Below, piece by piece: positions 25,771-51,275 of a DNA stretch of 64,000 bases. Origin of the DNA: Paralcaligenes ureilyticus. Its GTDB lineage: Bacteria; Pseudomonadota; Gammaproteobacteria; Burkholderiales; Burkholderiaceae_B. A program made the position numbers and the translations under genes. Below the pieces are notes generated by a model. It had not been told where the DNA came from. It was given only the letters and a program-made list of their open reading frames with translations, and made no database searches. The first letter of the stretch is position 1. Each line of letters starts with the position of its first letter. The stretch is taken from contig NZ_SMAJ01000001.1 of assembly GCF_004346225.1 (NCBI RefSeq), positions 248,001 to 312,000 on the forward strand. Reading direction: 5' to 3'.

Positions 25771-25855
25771 GCCCGGGTGGTGAAATTGGTAGACGCAGGG
25801 GACTCAAAATCCCCCGCCGCAAGGCGTGCCGGTTCGATTCCGGCCCCGGGCACCA
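25771..25855 (+). tRNA. tRNA-Leu(CAA), probable island attachment gene
   Basis: The 85-nt gene has the acceptor stem GCCCGGG...CCCGGGC with encoded ACCA, a class II long variable arm (CGCCGCAAGGCGT) and T loop GGTTCGATTCC. The anticodon loop CTCAAAA gives CAA. A decayed tyrosine integrase follows 130 bp downstream, the usual layout when an element has inserted into the 3' end of a tRNA. I found no second copy of the tRNA 3' end in the window. Confidence 0.96.
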
Positions 25856-29762: not shown

Positions 29763-30337
29763 GTGGTACCGTCCTCTTTGATGTCGTCCACTGCGGCGTC
29801 GATGATCTTGTGTAGTTGCACCTGAACGGCTCGGCTGCCTTGCTTTGCTGGAACTACCAAGTCGGCGATCTCCTGGTCGAGACCTTCACCCAGCTTTGAA
29901 AACTGCTCAACGGCGTCCGCAATGGGTGCTTGTGCCTCTGGCAGTCGCAGAGGCAGGAGCACGGCAAGCCAGTTTCGGAGTGAATCTTCCGCGTCCTTGT
30001 CGAGCACGGTTCCCGTGGGAAGCACTCGGCAAACACGGGCCATAGCCTCGAGATTCGCCGAAGTGGGGCGTGGTCCAGCAACCACAACAGTCAGAGGCCG
30101 CTTCGATCTAGCTACATCAAGCGCGCGGGCAACACCCTCCAGCTTGACTACAAGACGTTCTTCCAGCTCGAACGTAGTGTCGGCGATCAGTATTAAGTCC
30201 GGCGAAGGCTCGGTTCCGACCAGCGCAGCTGGAAAGACGAACTTCAGTCCACCAATGACAAGCGGTGCTGAAACGGATCGATAACCTGCCTCCTCCAACA
30301 AGGTTGTAATGCGTCCCACCGGGGTGGTGTCGTTCAT
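29759..30337 (-). CDS. small middle protein of the SIR2-SMC operon (LmuC/ABC-3C middle-component position)
   Basis: The 192-aa product has no motif I can name. It reads as a mixed alpha/beta protein with no signal or membrane segment: hydrophobic strands near residues 28-36 (LKFVFPAAL), 47-52 (LILIAD) and 80-88 (PLTVVVAGP), then a helical C-terminal half ending in acidic residues. It overlaps both neighbours by ATGA, so all three proteins are probably made in a fixed ratio. Size and position match the middle component of Lamassu/ABC-3C systems, but sequence alone does not prove homology. Confidence 0.6.
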   Translation of the reverse strand: MNDTTPVGRITTLLEEAGYRSVSAPLVIGGLKFVFPAALVGTEPSPDLILIADTTFELEERLVVKLEGVARALDVARSKRPLTVVVAGPRPTSANLEAMARVCRVLPTGTVLDKDAEDSLRNWLAVLLPLRLPEAQAPIADAVEQFSKLGEGLDQEIADLVVPAKQGSRAVQVQLHKIIDAAVDDIKEDGTT

Positions 30338-32055
30338 ATCGCGAGCTCCTCGCGGAATCGCTGAAACAGATCATCAAGGGTCGCCGAGGACTCCATCAGG
30401 GTGGCAATGCTCACCTCCCTCGCGACGAGTCGGCCCGTCCGTCCTGGAGCACTGCGCGGCGATCGGGGCATAGCGGGCACGAGCTTATGCCCGTGTATCA
30501 CGACTGGCTCGTCGGCATCCACCACATGCCCATCTTGCCTTAGCTGTAGAGCCGAGATCGGCCCGGATGTCAGAAACACCTTGGCCTCCCCCGACGAAGT
30601 GTTCAAACGAAACATTCCATCACGTACAGAGTTCGCTGCTGGGGAAGCGATTTTCCACTCACCGCGCGCGGCGCCATACCCAAGGACTCCAACCGCTACA
30701 CCGGTCTCGCACATGCCTGATGCAGGCAAATTTGGATTGATGTGAATGTTGGCAATCGACTCAACCGTCAAGGGCTGGTAGCGACCTGTCACACGGGTCA
30801 AGCTTCCGTTGCGGATCAGATTCAGAGATCGTCCCCACTGATCGATGAAGGCGTTGATGAAAGCCAACGGATCTGGCGCGACGCACGCGGCCAGTTGATC
30901 CCTGAGCGCAACGACACCGTCTCGCAGTGGCTGGCGATCGGCCGGCGGTATCGCACCCGCAGCAAGGTCGACAAGCGTCCGGACCTTGCTGCAAAGCAGG
31001 TGGAGTACTAGAGCAAGCAACAGCGGCTTCGCATAGGCTTGAATCCGAGACCCGTCGACGATCTGCTGGCGATTCGCAGGCGTGAGGTCCTGCCGATAGA
31101 CGTTTTGGAGCAGCCCCTGCTGGTCTCCGCCTAATTCGTTTGCAGAGAACACGTAGCTTGGTCGGTCGCCCGGCCACCGCCACGGCATGTTCACTGCAGC
31201 CTCTGCGAAGAGCGCTTGGATGTTGGCATCCTGGGCTGAGAGGCCAATCATGAGCGTTGGCTTTGTCGCGACAAGGTCCTCCAGTCGGCCTCGGAGCGCT
31301 GCGTTCTCCGGACGGGTAAGCCAGCCGTTTATCTGTGACTGCCGCGCAACCAAGAACGGCCGGTAGGCCGCCTCGTTCTGTGTGGCCCGTACAGCGCACC
31401 CGTGGAACTTGATCAATCGGCCATGGGCCGCTGGTTCTCGCAAATCCTCAGGGCGGGCGCACACCGAAAGCGCAGGCTGCCCACCCGTCAGAGCGGTGAT
31501 GGAGCCCTCGATGAGACCATCCCAGTTGGCCGATACGATGTCAGAGCTCGCGCCTTCCAGGACGAGGATCGCGAGACACATGTGTTCTACATCAGGCAGC
31601 TTGCCCGGGGCCGCGAACGTCCCTCGGACATCAACGGCCTCCCAGAGCAAGTAATCATCGGGCTCGCCCTCCACGTTGACGTCTAGCAGCCGGGCGTAGT
31701 TGTTGCACAACCGATCAACGATCTCGTTGTGATCAGGCCAGTCTGCAAACGGCTGGGTCAAGTCGACTCGGGCGTTTTCTGGATCGGTGAGTGGAGCAAG
31801 GTCCAGTGCGGCTCTCAGCGCCCTGCCGAACCGGCAAGCTGGGTCGCCTGGTGTGATTCGTACGCGTAGGAACTCCAGAACCCGTGCGATAATTTGACGA
31901 AGTCCATCGACGCGACTGAGGGAAATTCCGGATCCGAGCCAGAGCACGTATCTATCCTCGGCAACTCCTTTGGCCACAGAGGCGAATGACCCATCTAGAA
32001 GGGCCAATGTCTCAGGTACAGTGATCGTTGCCGCTATGGGCGCATCGGGTGGCAT
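30334..32055 (-). CDS. SIR2-domain protein, predicted NAD-consuming effector
   Basis: The 573-aa protein carries an N-terminal SIR2-like Rossmann domain (about residues 35-290). GSGIS lies at 41-45, SANWD at 175-179 (the N and D of the usual TxNxD), the HG pair in KFHGC at 217-220, and GLSAQD at 271-276. In SIR2 defence proteins these residues bind and hydrolyse NAD. The C-terminal 280 residues match nothing I know and would be the part that meets the partner proteins. It is the first gene of the leftward operon. Its start follows an AT-rich 200-bp region. The predicted role is NAD depletion upon infection, by analogy with Thoeris, DSR and Lamassu-Sir2. Confidence 0.78.
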   Translation of the reverse strand: MPPDAPIAATITVPETLALLDGSFASVAKGVAEDRYVLWLGSGISLSRVDGLRQIIARVLEFLRVRITPGDPACRFGRALRAALDLAPLTDPENARVDLTQPFADWPDHNEIVDRLCNNYARLLDVNVEGEPDDYLLWEAVDVRGTFAAPGKLPDVEHMCLAILVLEGASSDIVSANWDGLIEGSITALTGGQPALSVCARPEDLREPAAHGRLIKFHGCAVRATQNEAAYRPFLVARQSQINGWLTRPENAALRGRLEDLVATKPTLMIGLSAQDANIQALFAEAAVNMPWRWPGDRPSYVFSANELGGDQQGLLQNVYRQDLTPANRQQIVDGSRIQAYAKPLLLALVLHLLCSKVRTLVDLAAGAIPPADRQPLRDGVVALRDQLAACVAPDPLAFINAFIDQWGRSLNLIRNGSLTRVTGRYQPLTVESIANIHINPNLPASGMCETGVAVGVLGYGAARGEWKIASPAANSVRDGMFRLNTSSGEAKVFLTSGPISALQLRQDGHVVDADEPVVIHGHKLVPAMPRSPRSAPGRTGRLVAREVSIATLMESSATLDDLFQRFREELAI

Positions 32056-32265: not shown

Positions 32266-33099
32266 GAACGCTGAAGAATGGAACGACTTCGGTCGCCCGC
32301 TGCTGCGGGAGACGGCCAAGAAACTCTATCAATCGCAGGGCGAGCAATCCAGCATCATGGACTTATTCCGCCTGTGCACCATCGAAGACCCCAAGGTCTT
32401 GAAGCAATTCCTTGAAGGCACCCTAGCCGAATCTCTGTTTGTTGGCTCCAGCAAAGCCCTATCCTCCGCCCGTTTTGTTCTGTCGAACAAGCTATCGGAA
32501 CACACTCGCATGAAACCGGGAAAATTCTCCATCCGAGATTGGCCGGGCAAGCCAGGCAGCGGTAACTTGTACATCAATTGGCGCGAAGACATGATAAGTT
32601 CCATGAAGCCGCTGGTGTCGTCGTGGGCCGACGTGTTCATCACTTCGATTCTGTCTGTGCCAGAAAGCGCCCACCGGCGCTGGTGGCTGTTTATTGATGA
32701 ACTGCCAGCCTGGAAGCCCTGCCTTCATTAGAAGCCGGTTTGACCAAAGGGCGCAAGAACGGCCTGCGCATCATCGCTGGATTGCAGAGCACATCCCAGC
32801 TGGAACACATCTACGGACGCACAATGGCCACCACCATCCGGGCGAGCTTCCGTAACCTGGCTGTACCGGGCGGCTCCCGCACTGACCCGCAAACGGCAAA
32901 GGACATGAGTGAAAGTCTCGGAGAGCACGAGGCCGAGCGACCAAAGTACAGCATCAGCCGCAGTGTCGATCATCGGAACACGTCGGACAACATGGACCGC
33001 ACGACAGAAGACGTCGTGACGGCTGCGCAGATACAGGCACTGCCAGCGCTCGGGGGTTATATGTTGCTTTGGCGGGGGATTTCTCGATTGCGAGGGTAA
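32266..33099 (+). pseudogene. TraD-like conjugative coupling protein fragment, frameshifted
   Basis: The region encodes the middle and C-terminal part of a TraD/VirD4-family DNA-pumping ATPase. DFGRPLLRETAKKLY and SRWWLFIDELPA-like sequence are in the first frame, and LEALPSLEAGLTKGRKNGL plus IIAGLQSTSQLEHIYG are in the second. The frame changes at about 32710, inside the Walker B-DELPAL region, consistent with a one-base deletion. The N-terminal membrane part and Walker A are absent. It is a remnant of an integrative conjugative element or plasmid and supports a mobile origin for the island. Confidence 0.82.
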
Positions 33100-36510: not shown

Positions 36511-38037
36511 TCAGAGCTTGAAAAGAGGGCTGGGATTAGATGTTGGAACCACTAAAGTCAGACTCTTCTTCGCCCTGCTGAGGGCGACATACATTTTGGA
36601 CTTCGCGTACAAAGTTGATGTGAACTGCATCTTGTCACAAGCCATCAGCATCACATGGTCGCATTCTAGGCCCTTCGCTTTGTGAATGCTGCTGACGACC
36701 TTCTTTGGCGGAGATGGACGAGCGTATGAGCGAATACGCGATATCTCAGCGAAACCTTCGTCGGGATCCGCGAACTGTCCGATTCGTATCGCATCTCTGA
36801 ACTCAGAACGATAATCAATCTTCACCTTATCAAAGCCCGGAGCAGTCTCTTGTATCAAGGCGTGAATCTTCTGCAGTGCAATCGAGACTCCAATATGCGT
36901 TGGATCATTCAGGAGGCATCGTGCAATTGCCTGTATGCTGGCAGGCTTTCCAGTAGTGGGTTTGGCTGCTTCAGTACGGACCTCTTGAATCAATCTGTTT
37001 CCATGGCTTGATGGGCTAAATCCGGCAGCAACACTGTCCATAAAGGAAGCTACACCTTGCGCCAACGCCTCCGCATTCCCCTGTTCGCTACGCAGCGTCT
37101 GTACAAGCGTAACCAATGCCTCACGCGTATGCCCTTCCCATATCGGGACCGATCTTCCCCAGAAGGCCCGAAGCGCAACCACTAGGTCATTCTGCGAGGC
37201 CAAGATCATCAACTGAGTGGTGTTGCGCAACACCCTGTCAATCGAGACTCGATGTTCCCTGGACAGTTGATAGCCAGTACGCATCTGGGATAGGTTGTTG
37301 CCCACTAACACCCTAACCGACGAGGGAAGGTTATTTTTTAAATCGATTGGCAACCCTTGCTCCATACTCTCCCGAGCCTTGATAATCCAGGCTCCCAGAT
37401 GAGGGCAGCCATCTTGCCAGCGATGCGGAATGATCAATTTTTCGCTGGCTCCTTGCGCCTTCAATGCATCCCAGCGAGCACGGTCCTCTCGCGCAGCCTT
37501 ATCGCTCTTGGCGCCATAGATCCGCTGCATGGGATCACCAAAGATGCGGACTATCGCACCAGCGGCCAACAGCGACATAACGACACTATGCTGGTCGAAA
37601 CTGGAGTCTTGATGCTCATCACAGACGATTACTGGAAATCGCCGTGCAAGCGCACGCGCCACCATAGGCTGTAAGCAAAGAAATCTCGCCACCTTGGAAG
37701 CCATGATCTCGAACCCCTGTCCGCCGTCCTGCCAGGCCCAGGACATTATGTTGGGAGGGAGATCCAGAGCCTTGTGATATGCCAGAGCAATTTGCGAAAT
37801 CAAGGCATCAATAGTCTTGATTTCCACACGGGAGCCAGCTGTTTTAGTGCGAGCTGCAAATACGGAACATGCAGCATGAGTATGCGTCAAGATGAGCAAA
37901 CGGCCATCACCAAGGTGCCCAACTACGTCCTTGGCGTAAGCGGCACCCTGGTATGTTTTACCGCAGCCTGCGGCAGCCTCAATGACCACCAGTGGCTCGC
38001 GCGATCGAAGAAGCGTAGCGACGGCCTCGTCACTCAT
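36511..38037 (-). CDS. gajB: Gabija protein GajB, UvrD-like helicase
   Basis: The 508-aa protein is a superfamily 1 helicase-like ATPase. Walker A AAAGCGKTY lies at residues 21-29, and LTHTHAACSVFAAR is motif Ia. VCDEHQDSS is the Walker B region near 133, QRIYGAKSD is a motif III/IV-like segment, and IHKAKGLECDHVML is motif V near 455. Length and short domain set match GajB, the partner of the GajA nuclease. The ATG overlaps the gajA stop by four bases. In Gabija, GajB associates with GajA and is thought to respond to DNA ends and nucleotide levels during phage infection. Confidence 0.85.
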   Translation of the reverse strand: MSDEAVATLLRSREPLVVIEAAAGCGKTYQGAAYAKDVVGHLGDGRLLILTHTHAACSVFAARTKTAGSRVEIKTIDALISQIALAYHKALDLPPNIMSWAWQDGGQGFEIMASKVARFLCLQPMVARALARRFPVIVCDEHQDSSFDQHSVVMSLLAAGAIVRIFGDPMQRIYGAKSDKAAREDRARWDALKAQGASEKLIIPHRWQDGCPHLGAWIIKARESMEQGLPIDLKNNLPSSVRVLVGNNLSQMRTGYQLSREHRVSIDRVLRNTTQLMILASQNDLVVALRAFWGRSVPIWEGHTREALVTLVQTLRSEQGNAEALAQGVASFMDSVAAGFSPSSHGNRLIQEVRTEAAKPTTGKPASIQAIARCLLNDPTHIGVSIALQKIHALIQETAPGFDKVKIDYRSEFRDAIRIGQFADPDEGFAEISRIRSYARPSPPKKVVSSIHKAKGLECDHVMLMACDKMQFTSTLYAKSKMYVALSRAKKSLTLVVPTSNPSPLFKL

Positions 38038-39794
38038 AGATCAAGTTTTTCCAAAGCGGGACGCCCCGCTGCCACTAGCACCGAATTAATAAGCGGAAGC
38101 AGTTGCGGTTGTATGTCGCTCCATGCACCCAGTGCGACCATCCTCTCGGCTAGCTCACGCCCACCAGCATTAGACTTGAACCATTGTTGAGAATGTTTCT
38201 TCCAGGCTTTACCCTGCCCTTCGGGAGCGTCCTCTTTATTGCCAGTGGCAGCCGCAATAATCAGAGTTCGCAAAGTCTGTCCCGATATATGCAGTGCGGT
38301 GCTGATCGCATCCAGCGTCTTTTCCTGAATACCGAGCCGATCCGCCAAAGTTCGCAGTCGGTAGCCATCTAGTTCGCCCTCACTATCCTTCAGCAGCTCA
38401 AGAAGATTTTCTTCAGACACAGCCCCAAGCACATAGTCTTCCGTGCAACCATTTGGCCATTGATACAGGCGTTCCTTCAATTTCCCCTTAAGTCTCATCC
38501 AGCGTTGAGGCGCAGTACCCTCATTATCCACCAACCCAGCGAATAACAACCCGGAAGTGGCAAGCGTCTCAAGCAGATCTAAGGTGGCATCGTTGCCTTG
38601 GCCGTCACATACTCGAACACCATGGTCTAGCGGATTGCCTCCAAAAGCCTCTTCCAACAAATATTGCAGAAAGCCGACCTCAGTAGGTCCTTCCGCTATG
38701 ACAGCAATACGTGCTAGAAATGTCTCAGGATCCCTCTTTTGCTGCGGGCCAATCTTGTCCCGCGGTAGCGAACCTATTGCGCCCTGGTTGTCCAAATACC
38801 AGAGATGTGCTGACTCCGCGCAGGCGATGGCAACCGGACTGTGAGTCGTAATAAATATTTGTCCCGGTTGATCGGCCAAGGCGTTGATCAGCTTGCGCAG
38901 GCGGTAAGGCTCCAAACCACGCTCAATTTCATCGACCAAGGTGACACTTGCCTCCTTCTCCGTTGACGAGGCAATTTCCAGCGCAGCCATCCGACGCGTG
39001 CCAGCCCCCCAACTGCTTAGGGGCAACGTAATGCCATTTTTGGCCGCCAACAACCCGATCAGTGCACCGATGGACAACCCTTGGCTGCCCATGAGGCCAA
39101 GCTTTAATGCATTAGGAAGGGCTGCATTTGCCATGCGTGTGTCCAGCAACTCAATTGCCTGCATCCCCTCATCATTGAGAGCCTTGTGCAGGTCAAGGCC
39201 AGATACCTGTTTGCCAAGGCGGGCACGCAAAGTATTGTCGGAGAGCAACCGATCCAGAGCAGATCCGTAGACCAAGCGAAGGTCACGGTCATTGCGCCCA
39301 TCTGCGCTCATCCGAACCAAGCCAAGGCGCCGGCGTATAGCAGCGGAGAAATGATTACATTCATCGTTGGGCTGGACGATCTCCCATACAAGTTCCAGCT
39401 CTGTGGTCCCTCTTACACGCACTCGGTACACCGGCTCGCCAGAGCTTGACAGATCATCGTCCGTATCTGCAGGTGGAATAATGGCATCCTGCCCATCCCA
39501 CAACCATGGCCATGCGAAAGTGTTCTGTGATCCAATCCCTGTGGCATCGGACAGTGTCATAACTGCTTCGATTTGGAACTCTTGCGTACTGTCCCGCTCC
39601 CAATAGTCGACCTCGGAGAGGACTGTAGTGTTCGATGGCGAGAGCAGCAAAGCAATCGCTTCCAGGATCGTCGTCTTTCCAACGTCTCCTCCACCCAGAA
39701 TCACATTCATGCCACCCGCCGGAAGCCATGTTAGGGACTGGATACCCCTGAAGTGCTGAATCGTTAACTTGCGGATCCATGCTATTGAAGCCAC
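38034..39794 (-). CDS. gajA: Gabija protein GajA, OLD-family ATPase-TOPRIM nuclease
   Basis: The 586-aa protein has an ABC-type ATPase domain. FRGIQSL and Walker A GGGDVGKTT lie at residues 34-42, and VDEIERGLEPYRLRKLI is the Walker B region near 295. A TOPRIM domain follows from about 365 (VIAEGPTEVGFLQYLLEE, then the acidic VRVCDGQGND and LVDNEG), which supplies the nicking endonuclease. This architecture and the coupled UvrD-like gene identify a Gabija anti-phage pair. The promoter must lie in the 117-bp gap to the divergent helicase operon at 39912. Confidence 0.87.
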   Translation of the reverse strand: MASIAWIRKLTIQHFRGIQSLTWLPAGGMNVILGGGDVGKTTILEAIALLLSPSNTTVLSEVDYWERDSTQEFQIEAVMTLSDATGIGSQNTFAWPWLWDGQDAIIPPADTDDDLSSSGEPVYRVRVRGTTELELVWEIVQPNDECNHFSAAIRRRLGLVRMSADGRNDRDLRLVYGSALDRLLSDNTLRARLGKQVSGLDLHKALNDEGMQAIELLDTRMANAALPNALKLGLMGSQGLSIGALIGLLAAKNGITLPLSSWGAGTRRMAALEIASSTEKEASVTLVDEIERGLEPYRLRKLINALADQPGQIFITTHSPVAIACAESAHLWYLDNQGAIGSLPRDKIGPQQKRDPETFLARIAVIAEGPTEVGFLQYLLEEAFGGNPLDHGVRVCDGQGNDATLDLLETLATSGLLFAGLVDNEGTAPQRWMRLKGKLKERLYQWPNGCTEDYVLGAVSEENLLELLKDSEGELDGYRLRTLADRLGIQEKTLDAISTALHISGQTLRTLIIAAATGNKEDAPEGQGKAWKKHSQQWFKSNAGGRELAERMVALGAWSDIQPQLLPLINSVLVAAGRPALEKLDL

Positions 39795-39911
39795 TATTGC
39801 CCCCTCCTTGTTACAAGCCGCCTAGCTAGCTAAGCACGCTCCATAGGCCAATTACATCCTACCCATGTATCATATTGCAACGCCCAAGAAAACAATAGGC
39901 AACGCATATCC

Positions 39912-42900
39912 ATGCAAATCATCGACAACATCAACCACTTACTGGGCGATGACCTGAAGCAGACGCTGAAACCCGGCGCAAAACTCAAGATCGCCGCGTC
40001 CTGCTTCTCGATGTATGCCTACGAGGCCCTGCGCTCCGAACTCGAAAAAATCGACTCCCTACAGTTCATCTTCACGGCACCCACCTTTCTAGCCAGTGAG
40101 GTTACCGATAAGGTCCGACGCGAGCGCCGGGAATTCTTCATCCCCAAGCTGGACCGCGAACGCAGCCTGTACGGCAGTGAATTCGAGATCCAGCTACGCA
40201 ACAAGCTCACGCAAAAGGCCATTGCACGGGAATGTGCCGACTGGCTGCGCCGCAAGGCGACATTCAAAAGCAACCGCAACAAGGCTCCCATGCAGCAATT
40301 TGCCTGTATACAGTCCACACAAGCGGATGCGGCCTACCTACCGCTGCAGGGTTTCACGGCTGTGGACCTGGGCTACCAGCAGGGCGATGCAGTGTCGAAC
40401 CTGGTCAACAAGCTCGACGATGCTCCACTAACCACCACGTATCTGACCCTGTTCGACCAAATCTGGAACGCCCCGGAGAAGCTGGAGGACGTGACAGAGC
40501 GCATCTGCGACCACATTGCCTCGGTCTATCAGGAAAATTCCCCCGAAAGCCTCTATTTTTTGATGCTCTATCATATCTTCAACGAGTTTCTGGATGACAT
40601 CAGCGAAGACGTACTGCCCAACGAGCACACGGGCTATCTGGATACCTTGGTCTGGAACAAGCTCTTCAACTACCAACGTGATGCGGCAACTGGCATCATC
40701 AACAAGCTGGAAACCTACAACGGCTGCATCTTGGCCGACAGCGTCGGCCTGGGCAAGACCTTCACGGCGCTGGCCGTCGTCAAATACTACGAGCTGCGCA
40801 ATAAGTCCGTACTCGTGCTCTGCCCCAAAAAGCTGGCCGACAATTGGCTGACCTACTGCCGCAACCTCACCACCAACATCTTCGCCCGTGACCGCTTCAG
40901 CTATGACGTGCTCTGCCACACCGACCTAGGACGCAGCAAGGGCGAATCCTTCGGCATGCCGCTGAACCGCGTGAACTGGGGCAATTACGATCTGGTCGTC
41001 ATCGACGAGTCACACAATTTCCGCAACAACGACGCATTCAAGGATAGGGAAACCCGCTACCAGCGCCTGATGCGCCAGGTGATTCAGGAAGGCGTGAAAA
41101 CCAAGGTGCTGATGCTCTCGGCCACGCCGGTCAACAATCGCTTCACTGACCTGCGAAATCAGCTGGCACTGGCCTACGAGGGCCAGTCAGAAAATCTTAG
41201 CCAGAAACTGCACACCGAAAAAAGCATCGACGACATTTTTCGCAGTGCTCAGGCCGCCTTCAATACCTGGGCCAAGCTGCCACCGGAACAGCGCACCGCA
41301 CAGGCGATCCTGGACGCTTTGGATTTCGATTTTTTCGAACTGCTGGACAGTGTCACCATCGCCCGCTCACGCAAGCATATCCAGAACTTTTACGACACTA
41401 AGGATATCGGCCCCTTCCCGGACCGACGCAAACCGCTGTCATTTCGCTGCCCCTTGACCCAACTCACAGATGCTCCCGACTTCAACGAAATCTTCAAACA
41501 GCTCTCACAACTGACGCTGGCCGTTTATGCCCCCATCAGCTATATCCTGCCCAGCCGTCTGAAACACTACGAAGACCTGTATGACACCAAAGTTGGCCAG
41601 GCTGGCACCCTGCGCCAGTCCGACCGGGAAAAGAGCCTGCAACGGCTAATGACCACCAACCTGCTCAAGCGCCTGGAAAGCTCGGTAGCGTCCTTTCGCC
41701 TGACGCTGCAATCCCTACAGAACAACCACCTGGATACGCTCACCAAGATTACCGCGCATCAACAAAGCGGCACGGCCCTCACAGTGGGCGACCGCACAGC
41801 GGCCCTGGAAGACCTGGACCCCGACGAAGACGAGCTTTCCGATCTGGATGATGAATCCTCGGAGATCGGCAGCAAGGTACGCATCAACTTGGCCGACATG
41901 GACCTGCCCTCGTGGGAGTTCGACCTGAAGGCCGACCTGGACGTCATCCAGAACCTGCTGGACGCCATGACCCAGATCACGCCCCAGGACGACGCCAAGC
42001 TACAGCACCTTATTGCCCATGTCTTGAACAAGATTACCCAACCGATCAACCCGGCCAACCGCAAGATACTAATCTTCACGGCCTTTGCCGACACGGCTGA
42101 CTACCTGTTCAAGCAACTGGCCCCTATGCTGCAGGCTGAACATCATCTCCATAGTGCCAAAATCACCGGCAAAAGTGCCCCCAGGTCCACCCTGAAGAAA
42201 ACCTACGACTTCCAGGAACTGCTGACCCTGTTTTCCCCAAAATCCAAGGAAAAGGCGGCCGTCCTACCGCAGGAGCCTGCCGAGATCGAACTGCTGATCG
42301 CCACGGATTGCATTTCTGAAGGCCAAAATCTGCAGGATTGCGACTATCTGATCAATTACGATATCCACTGGAACCCGGTACGTATCATCCAGCGCTTTGG
42401 CCGCATCGACCGCATCGGGTCCTTCAACCAGAGCATCCAGTTGGTGAATTACTGGCCGGATATTTCGCTGGATGAGTACATCAATCTGAAGGAACGTGTC
42501 GAAAGCCGCATGATGATTGCCGATGTCACAGCCACGGGCGACGACAATGTACTGTCGGCCAAGGCGAACGACATCGCCTATCGCAAGGAACAGCTACAAC
42601 GCCTGCAGGAAGAGGTGATCGAGCTGGAGGATCTGAAGACCGGGGTGTCCATCACCGACCTGGGTCTGAACGAGTTTCGCATGGATCTGCTGAACTTCAT
42701 CGACATCTACGGTGAGCCTCACAATACCCCCAACGGCCTGCATGCTGTCGTAGCCGCTCAGCTGGAGCTCGGCCTGGTGCCGGGCGTCATCTTTACCTTG
42801 CGCAACCGTAACTCGGGCGTCAATATCCGTCAGCAGAACCGGCTGCATCCGTATTATCTGATTTACATGCGGCAAGACGGCACCGTGGTGCACAACCATA

Positions 42901-43187
42901 CCGAAGTCAAGCGCCTCCTGGACTTGGCCCGCAGCGCCTGCAAAGGCCAGGCAGTACCCGTGGCAGACGTTTGCCGTACGTTCAATGAGGTCACGCAAGA
43001 TGGGCGCCAAATGCAGGCCTATTCCAGCCTGCTGGGCGAGGCGATCCAATCTATGATCACGGTCAAGGAAGAAAGCGATCTGGACAGCCTCTTTTCCGGC
43101 GGCCCCACTACGGCTCTGAAGGACACCATTACCGGCCTGGACGATTTTGAATTGATCAGCTTCCTGGTGATCCAGGAGGCGGCATGA
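39912..43187 (+). CDS. SNF2/DEAH helicase with PLD-like N-terminal domain
   Basis: In the 1091-aa protein, residues 1-190 resemble a phospholipase-D-like domain (LKIAASCFSMYAYEAL, then YLPLQGFTAVDLG where a GSxNFT loop is expected). No HxK catalytic motif is visible, so it may be inactive. The helicase core has Walker A DSVGLGKTFTAL near 275-286, DESHNFR near 366, LMLSATPVNN near 397, and motifs V-VI (ATDCISEGQN and QRFGRIDRIGS near 827-837). It is the first gene of a four-gene operon with a DUF4391-like gene and type III mod/res, linked by ATGA. It may translocate on DNA as part of an extended restriction system; this is inference. Confidence 0.82.
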   Translation: MQIIDNINHLLGDDLKQTLKPGAKLKIAASCFSMYAYEALRSELEKIDSLQFIFTAPTFLASEVTDKVRRERREFFIPKLDRERSLYGSEFEIQLRNKLTQKAIARECADWLRRKATFKSNRNKAPMQQFACIQSTQADAAYLPLQGFTAVDLGYQQGDAVSNLVNKLDDAPLTTTYLTLFDQIWNAPEKLEDVTERICDHIASVYQENSPESLYFLMLYHIFNEFLDDISEDVLPNEHTGYLDTLVWNKLFNYQRDAATGIINKLETYNGCILADSVGLGKTFTALAVVKYYELRNKSVLVLCPKKLADNWLTYCRNLTTNIFARDRFSYDVLCHTDLGRSKGESFGMPLNRVNWGNYDLVVIDESHNFRNNDAFKDRETRYQRLMRQVIQEGVKTKVLMLSATPVNNRFTDLRNQLALAYEGQSENLSQKLHTEKSIDDIFRSAQAAFNTWAKLPPEQRTAQAILDALDFDFFELLDSVTIARSRKHIQNFYDTKDIGPFPDRRKPLSFRCPLTQLTDAPDFNEIFKQLSQLTLAVYAPISYILPSRLKHYEDLYDTKVGQAGTLRQSDREKSLQRLMTTNLLKRLESSVASFRLTLQSLQNNHLDTLTKITAHQQSGTALTVGDRTAALEDLDPDEDELSDLDDESSEIGSKVRINLADMDLPSWEFDLKADLDVIQNLLDAMTQITPQDDAKLQHLIAHVLNKITQPINPANRKILIFTAFADTADYLFKQLAPMLQAEHHLHSAKITGKSAPRSTLKKTYDFQELLTLFSPKSKEKAAVLPQEPAEIELLIATDCISEGQNLQDCDYLINYDIHWNPVRIIQRFGRIDRIGSFNQSIQLVNYWPDISLDEYINLKERVESRMMIADVTATGDDNVLSAKANDIAYRKEQLQRLQEEVIELEDLKTGVSITDLGLNEFRMDLLNFIDIYGEPHNTPNGLHAVVAAQLELGLVPGVIFTLRNRNSGVNIRQQNRLHPYYLIYMRQDGTVVHNHTEVKRLLDLARSACKGQAVPVADVCRTFNEVTQDGRQMQAYSSLLGEAIQSMITVKEESDLDSLFSGGPTTALKDTITGLDDFELISFLVIQEAA

Positions 43188-43885
43188 GCGCCCAGGCACT
43201 ACTCACTCCCCACCCTATCTTCATCCGCTACCCGGAACAGGCCGCCGTCAACCGGTCCTTGCCAAAAAACAAGGTCTATCAGCACAGTGGCGCCGGCGCC
43301 CGCATCAAAGACCTGTTCGTGGAGCAGGTAGACCAGATTGTCTGGGCATACAAACTGGCGCCCGACACCATCAACCTGCCCGCCCAGTCTGAGGTGCAGG
43401 AAATCCAGATCTTCCACCTAGCCTTGAAAACCCCAGCACTGCATCACGACGTGCTGCACTGCCTGGATGACGCCATTCCGCTGCCCATTATTTTCGAGCT
43501 GTATCACCAAGGCCGCACACAAGCCATTGCTGCCTACAAGCGCCCTGCTCTGTCCGGCGGCAAATCGGATCCTGAACACTGGGTACACTCTAGCTACTTC
43601 AGCACTGCATGGCTGCCATCTGATACCCCCAGAACAGCACTGCCTAGCACACTCGACCTGAGCGGGCTCTATGAGACCTTGCTACGGCAGTTGATTCCCC
43701 TGGCTGCACGATCCAAGGAAACCCTGACGGAACAGGTAGAGCGTGTCGCCCAGGTAACAATCATGCAGCGCGAAATCGACCAAATGGCCAGCCGATTGGC
43801 CAAAGAGAAACAATTCAATCGCAAGGTAGACATTAACCATGCCTTGCGAAAACTGAAGAATGAACTGCAAGAGATTATGACGTGA
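43184..43885 (+). CDS. DUF4391-like protein of the helicase-Mod-Res operon
   Basis: The 233-aa protein has a mixed N-terminal part with KNKVYQHSGAGARIKDLFVEQVDQIVWAYKLAPDT, followed by a C-terminal coiled region (about 180-233, REIDQMASRLAKEKQFNRKVDI). The pattern and gene context match DUF4391 proteins, which are repeatedly found between such helicases and type III methylases; no function is established. It overlaps the helicase stop and the mod start, so it is coupled to both. I see no nuclease motif that I would rely on. Confidence 0.7.
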   Translation: MSAQALLTPHPIFIRYPEQAAVNRSLPKNKVYQHSGAGARIKDLFVEQVDQIVWAYKLAPDTINLPAQSEVQEIQIFHLALKTPALHHDVLHCLDDAIPLPIIFELYHQGRTQAIAAYKRPALSGGKSDPEHWVHSSYFSTAWLPSDTPRTALPSTLDLSGLYETLLRQLIPLAARSKETLTEQVERVAQVTIMQREIDQMASRLAKEKQFNRKVDINHALRKLKNELQEIMT

Positions 43886-45756
43886 TGGATAAACTGAAAA
43901 TGCATAGCCCCGACCTAACCCAGGAAAATATCGCCCATATCAGGAAGCGATTCCCCGGCTGCGTCACGGAAACCCGGGATACACGCGGTGCTATTCGATT
44001 GGCGGTAGATTTCGATCTGCTACGCCAAGAATTGGCTGACGTCATCATCGAAGGCCCGCAAGAACGCTACCAACTCACTTGGCCCGGAAAACGTGAAGCC
44101 CTGCTCACGGCCAATGCCCCCATTTCAAAAACCCTGCGGCCCTGCCGGGAAGAAAGCGTGGATTTCGACACGACGAAAAATTTGTTCATCGAGGGCGATA
44201 ATCTCGATGCGTTGAAGCTGCTTCAGGAAACGTATCTCGGGAAAGTGAAGGTCATCTATATTGATCCGCCCTATAACACCGGGCGCGACTTTATCTATGA
44301 TGATGATTACAGCGCCGAAACGGATGAATACCTGACCGATTCCGGTCAGAAGGACGATCAAGGCGGCAGACTGGTCGCAAACACAGAGTCCAATGGACGG
44401 TTTCACTCGGACTGGCTGAGCATGATGGCCCCAAGGCTCCGTCTAGCCAGAACACTCCTAAAAGAGGATGGCAGTATCTTCATCAGCATAGATGACGGCG
44501 AGGTCCAAAACCTCAGATCCCTTTGCGACGAAATATTTGGTGCTGAAAATTTCATCGCCACAATCATATGGCACAAAATGGATAGCCCAAAAAACTCTGC
44601 TAAGTATTTGAGTGAAGATCACGATTACATTTTGTTGTATGCGAAGAACTCCAACATTTGGCGACCGAAACTTCTTCCACGCAGCGATAAAATGGTAGAG
44701 CGCTACAAAAACCCAGACAATGACTCGAGAGGGCCGTGGCTCCTCGGAGATCTTGCTGCCCGTAATTTTTACAGTAAAGGGACCTATCCAATCACCACAC
44801 CAGCCGGTAGAACCATTAGCGGACCACCGGCAGGAAGCTATTGGCGTGTATCAAAAGAAAAATTTAATGAACTTTTGACGGACAACAGAATTTGGTGGGG
44901 TGAGTCCAGTGATAACAGACCAGGTATTAAGAAATTTCTTTCAGAAGTAAGGGACGGTGTAATCCCGCAGACCTATTGGCCATGGAAAGAGGTTGGCAGC
45001 ACGCGAAACGCAAAGCAGGAATTAAGCAAGCTTCTTCAAGCATCTAGCGGCGATGACATATTCATTACACCCAAGCCCGTTAAGCTAATTCAGCGAATAC
45101 TGGAAATATCGACTGACTCATATGAGCAGGAGATTGTGTTGGACTTTTTTGCCGGTTCTGGCACGACAGCACATGCTGCATTCTCAAGCAATTCATTAGA
45201 TGGCGGCAATAGACGCTGGATCATGATTCAGCTACCAGAAGCCATGTCTTCTGAATCGACCATATCAGAAATGTGTATCACCCGTATCAAGCGAGCAGGC
45301 ACACAACTGTCCGGGCATACAAAGGGGATGATGCCAAACGTCGATACCGGCTTCCGCGTCCTAAAAGTTGACTCCACCAATATGGATGACGTATTGAGCA
45401 CTCCAGACGTCCTATCCCAGGCCGACCTGCTTAATAGCCTTGACAACATCAAGCCAGACCGCACAGCCGAAGACCTGCTGTTTCAGGTCATGCTGGACTG
45501 GGGTGTGGACCTGGCCCTGTCCATCGAGAAGAGAACAATCCAGGGCAAGGACATCTACTTCGTCGATGGCAACGCGCTGGCCGCCTGCTTCGATGCCCAT
45601 GGCGGTGTTGACGAGGCCCTCGTCAAGGAACTGGCTACCTATCAACCTTTGCGCGTGGTCTTCCGCGATGCCGGATTCCGTGACAGCGCGGCCAAAATCA
45701 ACGTAGAGCAGATTTTCAGAACGGCATCCCCAGCCACTGACGTCAAGTGCATTTGA
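43885..45756 (+). CDS. mod: type III restriction-modification DNA methyltransferase (Mod)
   Basis: The protein of about 623 aa is a beta-class adenine-N6 methyltransferase. The catalytic [16 protein letters not shown] lies near residues 127-142, before the SAM-binding [12 protein letters not shown] near 420-431, the order typical of type III Mod. The centre (about 230-400) is the variable target-recognition region and looks AT-richer than the flanks, as often seen when specificity domains are exchanged. The start is either the GTG at 43882 (GTGA overlap) or the ATG at 43885, which I prefer. It gives the recognition site for both methylation and restriction. Confidence 0.9.
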
Positions 45757-45766
45757 GGCCCCTGTC

Positions 45767-48700
45767 ATGAAGCTTAAATTCAAGACCCAGGCCTACCAGA
45801 CTGCGGCGGTAGAGGCGGTGGTGGACTGCTTCAACGGCCAGCTAGCGGCTCACGGCGGCATCCGCTACCGCTTGGACCCCGGTATTCAGCCAGTAAAACC
45901 TGCGAATCCCCAGGCCGTGTTGGATATGGAAGCTCCCGTCACCGCCGATCTGGATGCGGCTTTTCGCAACGCTGATATCGGTTTGCTGGATGATGATCTT
46001 TTGCAAAATATCCAGGCCATTCAGAGACAGCAAAATCTGCCTGTCTCGGCCTCCCTGACTGATTTTCATGCCTTGGATGCCAAAGGCCAGCGCACGGCGG
46101 CAAAGAAGGCCTATAAGGATCTGGCCCAACAGATCGCCCCTGTACATCTCGATATCGAGATGGAAACCGGCACCGGCAAGACCTACTGCTATATCAAGAC
46201 GATCTTCGAGTTGAACCGCCAATATGGCTGGAGCAAGTTCATCATCGTTGTGCCCAGCATAGCCATCCGCGAGGGCGTGGCCAAGTCCATCAGTATCACG
46301 GCGGATCACTTTCTGGAAACGTACGAAAAGAAAGCTCGCTTCTTCATCTACGATTCCAGGCAGTTGCATCACCTGGAAAGCTTTTCATCGGATGCCGGCA
46401 TCAACCTTATGATTATCAATGTCCAGGCCTTCAATGCTACGGGCAAGGACAATCGCCGCATCTACGAAGAACTGGACGATTTTCAGTCGCGCAGGCCGAT
46501 CGACGTCATCAGCGCCAACCGTCCTATTCTGATTCTGGACGAACCCCAGAAAATGGAAGGCACGAAGACCTTGGAATCGCTCACACACTTCAAAGCCTTG
46601 ATGGTGTTGCGCTACTCGGCCACACACAAGACCACCCACAACCGGATCCACCGCCTGGATGCGCTGGACGCCTACAATCAGAGGCTGGTGAAGAAGATTG
46701 CCGTGCGCGGTATCGCCGTCAAGGGCCTGGATGGCACCAACAGCTATCTGTATCTGCAATCCATCGAAATTTCCACTAAACGGCCACCCGTGGCAACAGT
46801 AGAACTGGAGCAGAAACGGGCCAGCGGCGCTATTCGTCGTGTCACCCGCAAACTGTCCAGGGGCGACAACTTGTTTGACCTGTCCAATGGACTGGATCAG
46901 TATCGCCAGGGTTATGTCGTCAGCGACATCAATGCCAATACGGATACTTTAAGCTTCACTAACGGGGTCGAACTGGTTGTTGGCGACGCTCTGGGCGATG
47001 TCAATGAAACCACCCTACGACGCATCCAGATCCGCGAAGCAATCAAGGCACACTTCGATAAGGAACAGGCTCTCTTTTCCCAGGGGGTAAAGGTGCTGAC
47101 CCTGTTCTTCATCGACGAGGTCGTCAAATACCGCGATTACAGCGCAGCCGATGAAAAAGGGGAATACGCGCGCATCTTCGAAGAGGAATACGTCCAAGCG
47201 CTGAATGAAGTCCTGGACCTGGACGAAACCCCGTACATCCAGTATGTAAAGCACATTAGCGCCGCCGAGACCCACTGCGGCTACTTTGCCATCGACAAGA
47301 AAAGCAGCCGGCTCGTCGACCCCAAGGCCGCCGCACGTGGCGAAAACGCGGGCCTTTCAGACGATGTGGACGCCTATGATCTGATCTTGAAAGACAAGGA
47401 AACCTTGCTGTCGCTGCCCACGCCTCACGATAATGCGCAGGCACGAGCTAGGAAAAATGTACGCTTCATCTTTTCGCATTCAGCACTGCGAGAAGGTTGG
47501 GACAACCCGAATGTGTTCGTGATCTGCGCTCTAAAACACAGCGACAACACGATTTCCCGCCGCCAGGAAGTCGGCCGGGGCCTGCGCCTGGCGGTCAACC
47601 AACAGGGCGAACGCATGGACAACCCGGCCACGGTACACGACATTAATGTGCTCACGGTCGTAGCCAGCGAAAGCTACAAGCATTTTGTCGCGGCCCTGCA
47701 GCAGGACATCAGCGAATCACTTTCGGAACGCCCACGCATTGCGGATCAAGCCTACTTTACCGGCAAGATGCTGCAAACCGAAGTTGGCCAAATTGCCGTA
47801 ACCGAGGCCATGGCGGGCGATATCGAGTTCTACCTGATCCAGAACGGGTATGTGGATCGACAACGCCATATCACGGACAAATACTACCAGGAACGCCAGG
47901 CAGGTGTCCTGGCCGAGCTGCCAGATGCCTTGCAGATTCACGCCGAACTGGTCTTGCAACTAATCGACAGCGTCTTCAGCCAGGCGCAGGTGCCCGCCAT
48001 TGAAGACGACCGCCGCCCAAAGAAGAACCCAGTCAACGATAATTTTGAAAAGCAGGAATTCAAGGCCCTGTGGCAACGAATCAACCACAAGGCCGCCTAC
48101 AGCGTGGCCTTTGACAATAAGGAACTAATCCGCAAGGCAACCGAGACCCTGGATGCCAGCCTGCGGGTTACGCCTCTGACCTACACCATTCAGCATGGCG
48201 AGCAAGCCACTCGCGCCACCTTCGACGATATCAAAGGCGGCACTAGCTTTGCCCTGACCATGACGGACACCAAATCTGAGCGGCATTCGGTACATTCCGC
48301 AGTGCGCTACGATCTGATCGGCAAACTGGCCGAAGGCACGCAATTGACCCGCCGTACTATTGCTGCCATTTTGCAGGGCGTCAATGTAGCCGTGTTCGCC
48401 CAGTTCAAACAGAACCCCGAGCATTTCATCGCAGAGGGCAGGCGGCTTATCAATGAACAAAAGGCCACCTGCGTCATTGAGCACCTGGCTTACGACGCCA
48501 TCGAAGACCGTTACGACATGACGATCTTCACCGATGGTCAGACCAAGCAGGACTTCAGCAAGGCCGGCAACAGGCTGCAACACCATATCTACGACTATGT
48601 GCTGACGGACTCCAAGATTGAACGACAGTTCGTACAAGAACTGGACACGTCCAATGACGTGGTGGTCTATGCCAAGCTGCCCCGAGGCTTTCTGATCCCG

Positions 48701-48943
48701 ACCCCCGTGGGCGACTACAACCCCGACTGGGCTATCGCCTTTCGAGAAGGCAGCGTGAAGCACATCTATTTCGTGGCTGAGACCAAGGGCTCCATGTCAT
48801 CCCTTGAATTACGAGAGATCGAGCGTACAAAGATCGAGTGCGCCCGCAAGTTCTTTGCCGAAATGAACAAACGCTTCGCCCCGGAAAACGTCCGCTACGA
48901 TGTCGTGGACAGCTTTGGAAAGCTCATGGAAGTTGTGCAGTAG
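45767..48943 (+). CDS. res: type III restriction endonuclease subunit Res
   Basis: The 1058-aa protein has superfamily 2 helicase motifs: Walker [14 protein letters not shown] at residues 133-145, DEPQ near 258-261, SATHKT near 284, and REGWDNPN...[10 protein letters not shown] near 578-608. At the C-terminus, YNPDWAI near 985 and VAETKGS near 1003 form a PD-ExK nuclease site. All parts needed for cleavage are present and the length is normal. It follows mod by 10 bp. With Mod it makes the cleavage complex, which needs two inversely oriented sites. Confidence 0.92.
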
Positions 48944-49596: not shown

Positions 49597-49655
49597 TTGC
49601 CAGCATAAATTCATCATTTTTGCGCATCCTGCGGCAACAGCACCAGGAACATTCC

Positions 49656-51275
49656 ATGAGTGAGCTTCCCAACAACCCTATTGGCGCGGCGTGGCTAGCC
49701 CGGGCGTATCAGCTTCTCCCGACCGGGCGTATACCAGTACAAAGCCAGATCGGCGGGCGACGGGCCACACAGATCAGTAACGGCGGCAGACTGGAAACCT
49801 ACCCGGAGACCATGCGCCCTTCACGTGAGCCCGCAGCACACCTTCAATTCCACCTGCGCCACGAAGTGCCGCACCTCGAATTCCTGTCTCGCCTGTTCGC
49901 CAAGACCGGTCCCTCCTTTGTTCAGGCCTGGGTCGATGCCGAACCGACCGGGCAGTATGCCCGCCGGGCTGGCTTTCTGTACGAGTGGTTGACCGAAGAT
50001 ACCTTACAGATACCGGAACGCATCGGCGGCAATTATGTCGATGTCATCGACAACACCAAACTTGTAGCGGCTTCAGCAGATCGCATGGTGAAAGTGCCGC
50101 GCTGGCGCATCAACGACAATTTGCCGGGTACACGATACTTTTGCCCGACCATCGTCAAGACTGACGCAACGATCCTGGCCATGGCCTTGGATGTACCGCA
50201 GCTCTTCCAGAACCTGACGGACGAATTCGGCGAAGACCTGCTGCAACGCGCCGCCGTGTGGATGACCCTACGTGAAAGCAAGGCCAGTTTTGCCATTGAG
50301 GGTGAAGCAGACCGCGCCAGCCGCATCGAACGGTTCGCCGAGGTCATGGCCCGAAGAACAGGCCACGGCGACAGCCCGTTGAGCGACACCGCGCTTGCTC
50401 AACTACAAAGCGAGATACTGGGCGAGCGCACTACGCTCACCCATTTCGGCTTACGCCAATCGCCCGTCTTCGTAGGAGAAACTGTACGCTATCAGGATGT
50501 TGTGCATTATGTGGCGCCACCAGCAGATGACGTCGCGGCCATGCTGGAAGGCCTTCGCGTTTTCCTTGAGCGCACACAAGGACAATCGCCTGTCATGCGC
50601 AGTGCCGTAGCCGCTTTCGGCTTCGTCTACATTCATCCGCTGGCTGACGGCAATGGTCGCGTGCACCGTTTTCTGATCAACGACACATTGCGGCGCGATG
50701 GTGCGGTGCCCGAGCCGGTGATTCTCCCCGTATCAGCAGTCATCACCGACGATTCTGGAGAGCGTCGCAATTATGATCGCGTGCTGGATGAGGTATCCAA
50801 ACCCCTGATGCAAGAGGCGCGTGAACATATAACGTTCACATCCAGGCATACCAGTTATCCGGATGGCGTCGTTTCCAACTTCGAGTTCAACGGAAATGAA
50901 CAGGTTCGCCCTGTGTGGCGCTATCTTGATTTGGGGCCGCATGTGGTCTACCTGTCCAACATCGTCACACGTACTCTGACAGAACAGATGCGCGAGCAAT
51001 CACGCTACCTGCGCAACCACGGGCGCGCTCGCCAGGCGCTCAAAGAGGTTGTCGAAATGCCTGACCACCAGGCAGACCGCATCCTTAGATCGATTGAGCA
51101 AAACAACGGTGAATTGAGCAATGCACTGGCCAAGCAAATGCCAATACTGAGTGAGCCCGGCGTATGGACGGAGATCATCGAGACCGTATCCCTGGCTTTC
51201 CAAAAGGACCCTCCCGCCGATAGTCATATCCTCGACCGCTACCATCCTTCACGGCCCGCTGGCAGGGAATCATGA
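49656..51275 (+). CDS. Fic-domain protein with N-terminal inhibitory motif (class II)
   Basis: The 539-aa protein carries the Fic active-site motif HPLADGNGRVHRF from residue 327, with all key residues (H, D, G-N-G-R), so it should transfer AMP or a related group to target proteins. The segment SFAIEG (211-216) fits the [S/T]xxxE[G/N] inhibitory helix, placing it in the self-inhibited class II. N-terminal residues 1-200 are a DUF4172-like helical region, and the C-terminal 140 residues look like a winged-helix part (ALKEVVEMPDHQADRILR). The ATG at 49656 follows AGGAAC; the frame is open 12 codons further. It stands alone after the R-M operon. Confidence 0.85.
   Translation: MSELPNNPIGAAWLARAYQLLPTGRIPVQSQIGGRRATQISNGGRLETYPETMRPSREPAAHLQFHLRHEVPHLEFLSRLFAKTGPSFVQAWVDAEPTGQYARRAGFLYEWLTEDTLQIPERIGGNYVDVIDNTKLVAASADRMVKVPRWRINDNLPGTRYFCPTIVKTDATILAMALDVPQLFQNLTDEFGEDLLQRAAVWMTLRESKASFAIEGEADRASRIERFAEVMARRTGHGDSPLSDTALAQLQSEILGERTTLTHFGLRQSPVFVGETVRYQDVVHYVAPPADDVAAMLEGLRVFLERTQGQSPVMRSAVAAFGFVYIHPLADGNGRVHRFLINDTLRRDGAVPEPVILPVSAVITDDSGERRNYDRVLDEVSKPLMQEAREHITFTSRHTSYPDGVVSNFEFNGNEQVRPVWRYLDLGPHVVYLSNIVTRTLTEQMREQSRYLRNHGRARQALKEVVEMPDHQADRILRSIEQNNGELSNALAKQMPILSEPGVWTEIIETVSLAFQKDPPADSHILDRYHPSRPAGRES

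Follow-up and report, generated by a model that had tools for sequence, protein, structure and literature searches.

Why should a type III restriction-modification operon carry two additional genes ahead of mod and res? Type III restriction is usually thought to need these two genes and no others; cleavage takes ATP and two inverted unmethylated sites, and one strand is methylated. The question is raised by a 64,000-nucleotide stretch of the Paralcaligenes ureilyticus genome (contig NZ_SMAJ01000001.1, positions 248,001 to 312,000 of the forward strand; hereafter the window), in which genes for an SNF2-family motor (HEL), a DUF4391 protein, a methyltransferase (Mod) and an ATPase-nuclease (Res) follow one another in the same direction. 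The four genes form a conserved, co-inherited unit, here called the cassette, and on balance we favour reading it as a four-component type III restriction-modification system in which HEL would be recruited via the DUF4391 protein and Res would do the cutting. No paper describing the cassette was found in the open-licence literature on DUF4391, PF14335, or type III systems together with helicase, SNF2, phospholipase D (PLD) or DrmD, a scope that leaves out subscription journals and REBASE. The sole paper found to name DUF4391 does so in a table comparing the bacterial hosts of TM7x.

A conserved and co-inherited four-gene unit

The preliminary description of this DNA, made from its letters alone, had proposed a type III operon extended by two upstream genes. 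Its arrangement of four rightward genes is borne out by the open reading frame (ORF) positions, with 4-bp overlaps at the HEL/DUF4391 and DUF4391/Mod junctions, a 10-bp gap between Mod and Res and no internal stops. Its identification of an SNF2-like helicase, a DUF4391-like protein, an intact beta-class Mod and an intact Res with a PD-ExK end agrees with the Pfam matches and motifs. HEL matches SNF2-rel_dom, Helicase_C and ResIII, and direct reading shows GLGKT 279, DESHN 365 and QRFGRIDR 827 to be intact. The DUF4391 protein is full-length, matching PF14335 with 193 bits (cut-off 29.9) over profile positions 2-232 of 232. Mod matches N6_N4_Mtase, with DPPY 128 preceding FAGSGT 423 in the beta order, and Res matches ResIII and RE_endonuc, with GTGKT 135, DEPQ 258, PDWA 986 and ETKG 1005. 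Among PADLOC models the best for HEL is C3a139 'HKD+Snf2' (411.8 bits), Mod is labelled MTase_III (753) and Res REase_III (1066), while no PADLOC model matches the DUF4391 protein; cassette loci labelled piecemeal in this way may therefore be counted as plain type III systems.

The type III core resembles solved enzymes. Against Protein Data Bank (PDB) chains, Mod matches the Mod subunit of 6k0w at 7.7e-80 and that of EcoP15I (4zcf) at 5.1e-54, and Res matches EcoP15I Res at 5.5e-70. According to the EcoP15I study (PMC4490356), type III enzymes consist of Mod and Res, their motor switches the enzyme into sliding and does not translocate step by step, and the Pin region spans residues 288-365 of EcoP15I Res. 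Window Res aligns across this region, so the type III core looks complete as judged from sequence. The idea that HEL replaces sliding by Res was rejected, as Res has sequence opposite the Pin region and no sign of its loss.

To see how far the arrangement extends, we scanned genome contigs (the best 80 of 567 relatives, a set that leans to close relatives) and viral contigs (75 loci) with a HEL alignment, and recognised the other genes with DUF4391, Mod and Res family models built from 14-22 loci each plus the window; gene gaps were taken between stop-to-stop ORFs and are lower bounds. Where at least 9 kb of downstream sequence was available, HEL, DUF4391, Mod and Res occur in this order at 60 of 61 genome loci, the lone exception (L060) having a Mod cut short and followed by genes resembling an insertion sequence. 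The same order was found at 38 of 46 viral-contig loci (the others being L154, L160, L187, L189, L190, L191, L202 and L203) and at all 18 loci from plasmids and phylum samples, a set collected by way of DUF4391. DUF4391 is present at 60 of the 75 viral-contig HEL loci; the 15 others comprise nine contigs that end within 10 bases of HEL, five loci of a sister system described below and L187. The best 80 genome loci cover at least 12 named phyla, the largest being Pseudomonadota (40) and Actinomycetota (13). From these synteny counts it follows that the cassette is more than a chance arrangement.

The reverse test, starting from DUF4391, covered four phylum samples: 398 genomes of the window's phylum (23 with a DUF4391 match), 199 of Bacillota (17), 198 of Actinomycetota (3) and 198 of Bacteroidota (10), the last three phylum names being those of the centre organisms. 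These counts include the window and exclude the centre genomes G398-G400, which had been chosen for carrying the family; split matches in G336 and G559 were joined. HEL adjoins DUF4391 in 49 of the 57 loci read with flanks of up to 1.5 kb (21/25 in the window's phylum, 17/18 in Bacillota, 2/2 in Actinomycetota and 9/12 in Bacteroidota). The remaining eight are five contig ends (L005, L007, L021, L024, L235), a copy next to Mod that deletion has reduced to a remnant (L265), a fragment close to the end of its contig (L269) and a fusion (L266), and no full-length DUF4391 gene having upstream room yet lacking HEL was seen among the 57 loci. The search for conserved four-gene neighbourhoods that the preliminary description had proposed thus gave a clear outcome: the homologues are not mostly apart from mod and res, which it had named as one finding that would speak against it, and the case for an extended type III operon is now stronger than the window by itself could have made it.

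The four genes also diverge together. Across 79 loci with HEL identity below 85%, pairwise identities correlated at 0.91 for HEL-Res, 0.82 for HEL-DUF4391, 0.80 for HEL-Mod and 0.83 for Mod-Res, with maxima in 200 permutations of 0.16 for the three HEL pairs and none above 0.174 overall. Among complete E. coli genomes, 10 of 5426 have the cassette known from an E. coli plasmid (L028), which makes it rare there; 10 of its 11 places are on plasmids. Three records in the phage collection carry DUF4391. These data bear on the simplest alternative, namely that an ordinary two-gene type III system has acquired a hitch-hiking helicase pair. Mod/Res pairs of the same clade without a HEL match do exist, as such a reading expects, but it fits poorly with a gene order and relative distances conserved over at least 12 phyla among the best 80 of 567 relatives, with HEL being found beside every full-length DUF4391 that has room upstream, and with the 4-bp overlaps in the window; we regard it as very unlikely.

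The DUF4391 protein, HEL and a sister system

Distant HEL homologues belong to a second system, found on viral contigs L189-L192 and L203 (the five HELs at 38-40% identity) and at L230 (genome G071) and L270 (genome G932). There HEL precedes a large Eco57I-type, type IIG-like methyltransferase, and an ATPase gene is also present in L189, L190 and L203. Hma was rejected as the identity of these loci, given that the methylases scanned match type IIG-like/Eco57I models and not m5C models. Pfam PF14335 is detected in the L190 methyltransferase (E 8.6e-5, below the curated cut-off) and, above the cut-off (32 bits), inside a 1288-aa ORF of G932 one gene from HEL, at the fusion locus L266. The DUF4391 family model gave weak matches to the methyltransferases of L230, L278 (G932 again) and L281 and none to those of L279 and L280. 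In a profile-profile comparison (hhalign), the core of DUF4391 matched ten sister methyltransferase N-termini with a score of 44.1 and probability 81 (85 in an earlier run with six N-termini), against a maximum of 21.6 in 100 column shuffles and scores of 17.7 for the reversed profile and 14.5-18.9 for HEL, Mod and Res. By this measure, the DUF4391 core resembles a domain that the sister methyltransferase carries as a fusion, and does so far beyond the level of the controls.

A model of the sister N-terminus found seven genomes in a Bacteroidota sample of 203. Among the four strong matches, three have HEL directly upstream and G932 has a 358-aa gene in between; at the three weaker matches the upstream helicase frames fit the HEL model less well (27-231 bits). 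The intervening gene of G932 (L270:6563-7636, + strand), between HEL and the IIG-like methyltransferase, looks by eye like a DUF1016-type protein. On viral contigs the N-terminus was found at seven loci, five of them already among the sister loci studied; L275 begins inside the methyltransferase gene, and L277 (31% identity), where 16.6 kb contained no match to HEL and the matching stretch itself no long frame, speaks neither for nor clearly against the association. Two partial matches were found on plasmids.

When one of two sister systems encodes a domain as a protein of its own and the other as part of a fusion, the partners are usually in physical contact. Since DUF4391 is separate here and has a fused counterpart in the sister system, it likely bridges the SNF2 motor and the methyltransferase-containing complex. 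Its AlphaFold2 model (mean pLDDT 93.7, pTM 0.88) begins with a mixed alpha-beta domain and ends in a long helical hairpin, a predicted shape suited to partner contact. The hairpin tip is conserved, with E208 in 73, Q210 in 78 and N212 in 64 of 84 sequences, and the best-conserved residues among well-filled columns are P17, K28, Q210, E73, T62 and E208. Foldseek found nothing at E <0.05 for the model in PDB and BFVD. A second structure aligner, searched with the whole model, returned mainly the generic C-terminal hairpin (residues 177-233, best Z 8.0), and we make no claim that the fold is new. When PDB sequences were searched with a profile, the hits were three helical chains, none with an E-value better than 0.09. 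The lack of a Foldseek match and the partial conservation of K28, E73, K119 and R120 could suggest that DUF4391 is itself a nuclease or a modification reader with a new fold. This we hold to be highly improbable, and a nuclease in particular was rejected, as its conservation shows no acidic pair plus lysine of the PD-ExK kind. As a candidate linker, PF14335, a domain without an assigned function and without a matching solved structure found, gains a testable role.

The N-terminus of HEL differs between the two systems. PLD models gave no match to window HEL; in the homologues L190 and L230, the region aligned to its N-terminus matches PF13091 (PLDc_2). Together with the alignment to sister HELs, this indirectly supports the earlier proposal of a PLD-like N-terminus without HxK. 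The catalytic pattern HxK...GSSNFT is present in all seven IIG-paired sister HELs read (6/6 and 1/1) and in none of the 170 other HELs read, 159 of which have DUF4391 at the same locus. The pattern is thus absent from the window's HEL lineage. Loss is the natural direction of the change, though not a proved one. The predicted HEL structure is of fair quality (pLDDT 78.2, pTM 0.70) and resembles RapA and other SNF2 motors, RapA being the top Foldseek match (E 3e-16, TMq 0.26, rmsd 21).

How the cassette may work

In the four-component mechanism that we favour, Mod would recognise an asymmetric site and methylate one adenine. At an unmethylated site, the Mod-Res complex would recruit HEL through DUF4391, and the SNF2 motor would then travel along the double-stranded DNA of the phage or remodel it, either removing proteins from it or drawing remote complexes towards each other, before Res makes the cut. 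The PLD domain of HEL may have been kept for DNA binding or for structure, and would have ceased to act as a nuclease once the motor was paired with Res. The preliminary description had suggested that HEL and DUF4391 change how the system recognises or destroys DNA; this is plausible, and the fusion in the sister system now adds a clue to it.

HEL and DUF4391 might instead act after or around restriction, in a RapA-like manner, by clearing stalled Mod-Res, polymerases or forks from half-methylated host DNA and so limiting self-damage. RapA is the top-ranked solved fold for HEL, and type III Mod methylates one strand only, as reported for EcoP15I (PMC4490356); the fusion of a DUF4391-like domain to the sister methyltransferase and the PLD-derived domain on the motor would both be left unexplained, and we consider a clearing role rather unlikely.

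The contents of the cassettes bear on yet another possible role. Of 150 loci that combine HEL, DUF4391 and Mod, 41 have additional ORFs (80 aa or longer) between DUF4391 and Mod, 45 between Mod and Res and 10 between HEL and DUF4391; the four core genes stay while the inserted genes, which are ORF predictions and in part possibly spurious, differ between loci. From 105 inserted genes of at least 100 aa, 83 were aligned and scanned, giving SLFN_AlbA_2 (14), the 23S_rRNA_IVP family (6), RhuM (5), Fic (5), Bro-N (5) and GmrSD (3), with Abi_2 and TIR also among the families. Such defence-type cargo in some cassettes (AlbA_2, RhuM, Fic, GmrSD, Abi_2, TIR) would be in keeping with HEL and DUF4391 being a guard, a second independent defence triggered when a phage blocks Mod/Res. 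The cargo, however, varies by locus whereas HEL and DUF4391 are nearly constant, HEL is without the PLD pattern and DUF4391 without a recognisable catalytic set, which makes a guard quite unlikely.

In the 398-genome sample, 44 places spread over 42 genomes match the type III Res model. Five pass the curated cut-off and resemble classical mod-res pairs (L213, L221 and L223, read with flanks, and L211 and L226, which reach contig ends). Nine further places that lie at a contig end or match in part were left out, and the 30 informative non-classical Res comprise 22 in cassette genomes (19 on the contig with HEL or DUF4391, three on other contigs of fragmented assemblies), two beside a DrmD-type helicase (L212, L228) and six without a HEL match in the stretch fetched (L209, L210, L215, L216, L227, L229), L209 having a partial Mod only and L210 no detectable Mod. 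In a Res tree of 93 rows, a long branch sets off those that pass the cut-off, and rows without a helicase are interspersed with those linked to HEL; this tree and that of HEL are quick searches with SH-aLRT support only.

Several observations weigh against our reading. Mod/Res of the same clade without a HEL match make up 6 of the 30 informative places, and the motor may therefore be dispensable. The cassette label requires 9 changes on the Res tree (shuffled mean 18.4), so the cassette has been gained or lost several times; losses are the simpler reading of the scattered helicase-free rows, although the HEL-linked rows were partly chosen via HEL and the tree is a quick one. On the HEL tree, pattern-bearing and pattern-less groups are split by one fully supported branch, and the correlation of PLD loss with the Res pairing is therefore probably a single event. 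The similarity of DUF4391 to the sister domain spans 66-92 residues at 11-12% identity with a pairwise hhalign probability of 81-85%, and among the four Bacteroidota methyltransferases with strong matches to the N-terminal model, the family model recognises two (19.1 and 13.6 bits). Finally, on viral contig L187 (5858-12111, +), Res comes straight after HEL, with no DUF4391 or Mod detected.

More tentatively, HEL and DUF4391 can be pictured as a portable motor-adaptor module, an add-on that might turn methyltransferase-guided restriction into an actively translocating machine. In its type IIG-like form the adaptor would be fused to the methyltransferase; in its type III form it would be a separate subunit, the motor's PLD nuclease having been given up. 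The four-gene form, and not the two-gene EcoP form, may then be ancestral for a large part of Res diversity. To this picture as a whole we give less than even weight. A phylogenetically broad group of type III systems, most of them with an additional motor of the SNF2 type and a linker protein of their own, would mean that the textbook enzymes represent one branch only.

Irregular loci were also observed. At L212 (3146-10997, -) and L228 (3634-11960, -) the DrmD-type helicase stands beside Mod and Res of the same Res clade, with DUF4391 not detected, and constitutes a second pairing of a helicase with type III genes. Two Mod-like genes in a row or close together occur in the cassettes of L110, L113, L126, L133, L146 and L198, possibly providing two specificities for one Res. 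Decayed or interrupted copies (L239, L250/L253, L209, L029, L060) include a HEL gene that is internally gapped or broken into pieces, a partial Mod, and a Mod interrupted by insertion sequences.

In the window the cassette (Table 1) has other defence-like genes as neighbours. A divergent Gabija-like pair adjoins it (36511-39794, -), with a GajA-like ATPase/TOPRIM protein (236 bits) and a GajB-like UvrD helicase (183 bits); a consensus promoter scan found no promoter-like site in the intervening region and, over all the sequence scanned, no excess of such sites over shuffles. Just past the cassette lies a Fic-domain protein that matches the candidate defence family PDC-S24 (49620-51275, +; 585 bits). 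Further upstream, one run of genes (27330-32055, -) encodes an SMC-like protein (PADLOC LmuB, 117 bits), a protein of 192 aa that matched nothing, and a SIR2_2 protein; the run looks like a Lamassu-type system with a SIR2 effector. A 124-aa ORF (32357-32731, +) partially matches a type IV secretion coupling protein (TrwB_AAD_bind) and is perhaps a mobile-element remnant. Near a tRNA-Leu gene (25771-25855), G+C measured in steps of 2 kb falls from 0.58-0.63 to values that are mostly 0.51-0.57 but reach 0.60-0.61 in two of the steps. A defence island may begin or end here; a search with words of 15 or 18 bases turned up no second copy of the tRNA region in the rest of the window.

Table 1. Features of the cassette and its upstream region, in positions of the window
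Feature	Positions	Strand	Basis
Divergent intergenic region between the Gabija-like pair and HEL, 117 bp, expected promoter place	39795-39911		ORF positions
HEL, SNF2-family motor, 1091 aa	39912-43187	+	ORF list, Pfam, motifs
PLD-derived N-terminal region of HEL (about residues 1-165), without HxK	39912-40406	+	Alignment opposite sister-HEL HGK...GSSNFT
DUF4391 protein, 233 aa, proposed adaptor	43184-43885	+	PF14335 match
DUF4391 core (residues 68-137), similar to sister methyltransferase N-terminus	43385-43594	+	hhalign
Tip of the DUF4391 C-terminal hairpin, conserved (residues 208-217)	43805-43834	+	Helices of the predicted structure (181-207, 211-232)
Mod, beta-class adenine methyltransferase, 624 aa, GTG start	43882-45756	+	N6_N4_Mtase, motifs
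Res, SF2 ATPase and PD-ExK nuclease, 1058 aa	45767-48943	+	ResIII, RE_endonuc, motifs

Comparison with known systems

The comparison with DISARM and other helicase-PLD systems that had been proposed from the sequence puts HEL below the cut-offs of DrmD and of a PLD-helicase anti-phage protein. HEL is an SNF2 helicase of the DrmD group, but it scores 150.5 bits against a cut-off of 610 and 97.9 against 950 for DISARM DrmD, and no DrmA, DrmB or DrmC was found among the flanking proteins scanned, a part of the window ORFs that includes the Gabija-like, Fic, trypsin-like, SIR2 and SMC proteins. For the PLD-helicase anti-phage protein NF042964 it scores 116.8 bits (cut-off 1100) and has no HxK in the PLD position. 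With Hma, a system of helicase, methylase and ATPase whose HmaB is an m5C methyltransferase (PMC8565338), the cassette shares the idea of pairing a helicase with a methylase; unlike it, Mod belongs to the N6_N4 family, HEL scores 88.9 bits against HmaA and 411.8 against C3a139, and the four genes lack a third, ATPase-only partner. The likeness of the HEL model to E. coli RapA, which recycles RNA polymerase according to the title of PDB 6bog, comes with a low TM-score, the shared part being essentially the motor.

The sister PLD-SNF2 and type IIG-like system is akin to the cassette in its homologous HEL and in the DUF4391-like domain of the aligned methyltransferase N-termini, and differs in its intact PLD pattern, in an Eco57I-type methyltransferase in place of Mod and in that no type III Res was found there. 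With EcoP1I and EcoP15I, the cassette has in common adjacent mod and res genes, a beta-class adenine methyltransferase, an SF2 ATPase with PD-ExK and an aligned Pin region; in contrast, the window operon has two more genes, its Res is 28% identical to phage P1 Res, scores 372.8 bits against the EcoP-type equivalog NF012027 of NCBIfam (cut-off 564) and lies, in the tree, a long branch away from those Res proteins that exceed it. By motifs and profile matches of Mod and Res and by their close spacing, the core is type III and its Res far from those of EcoP1 and EcoP15, which makes the cassette a type III system with two conserved extra subunits and a Res group distant from the EcoP prototypes.

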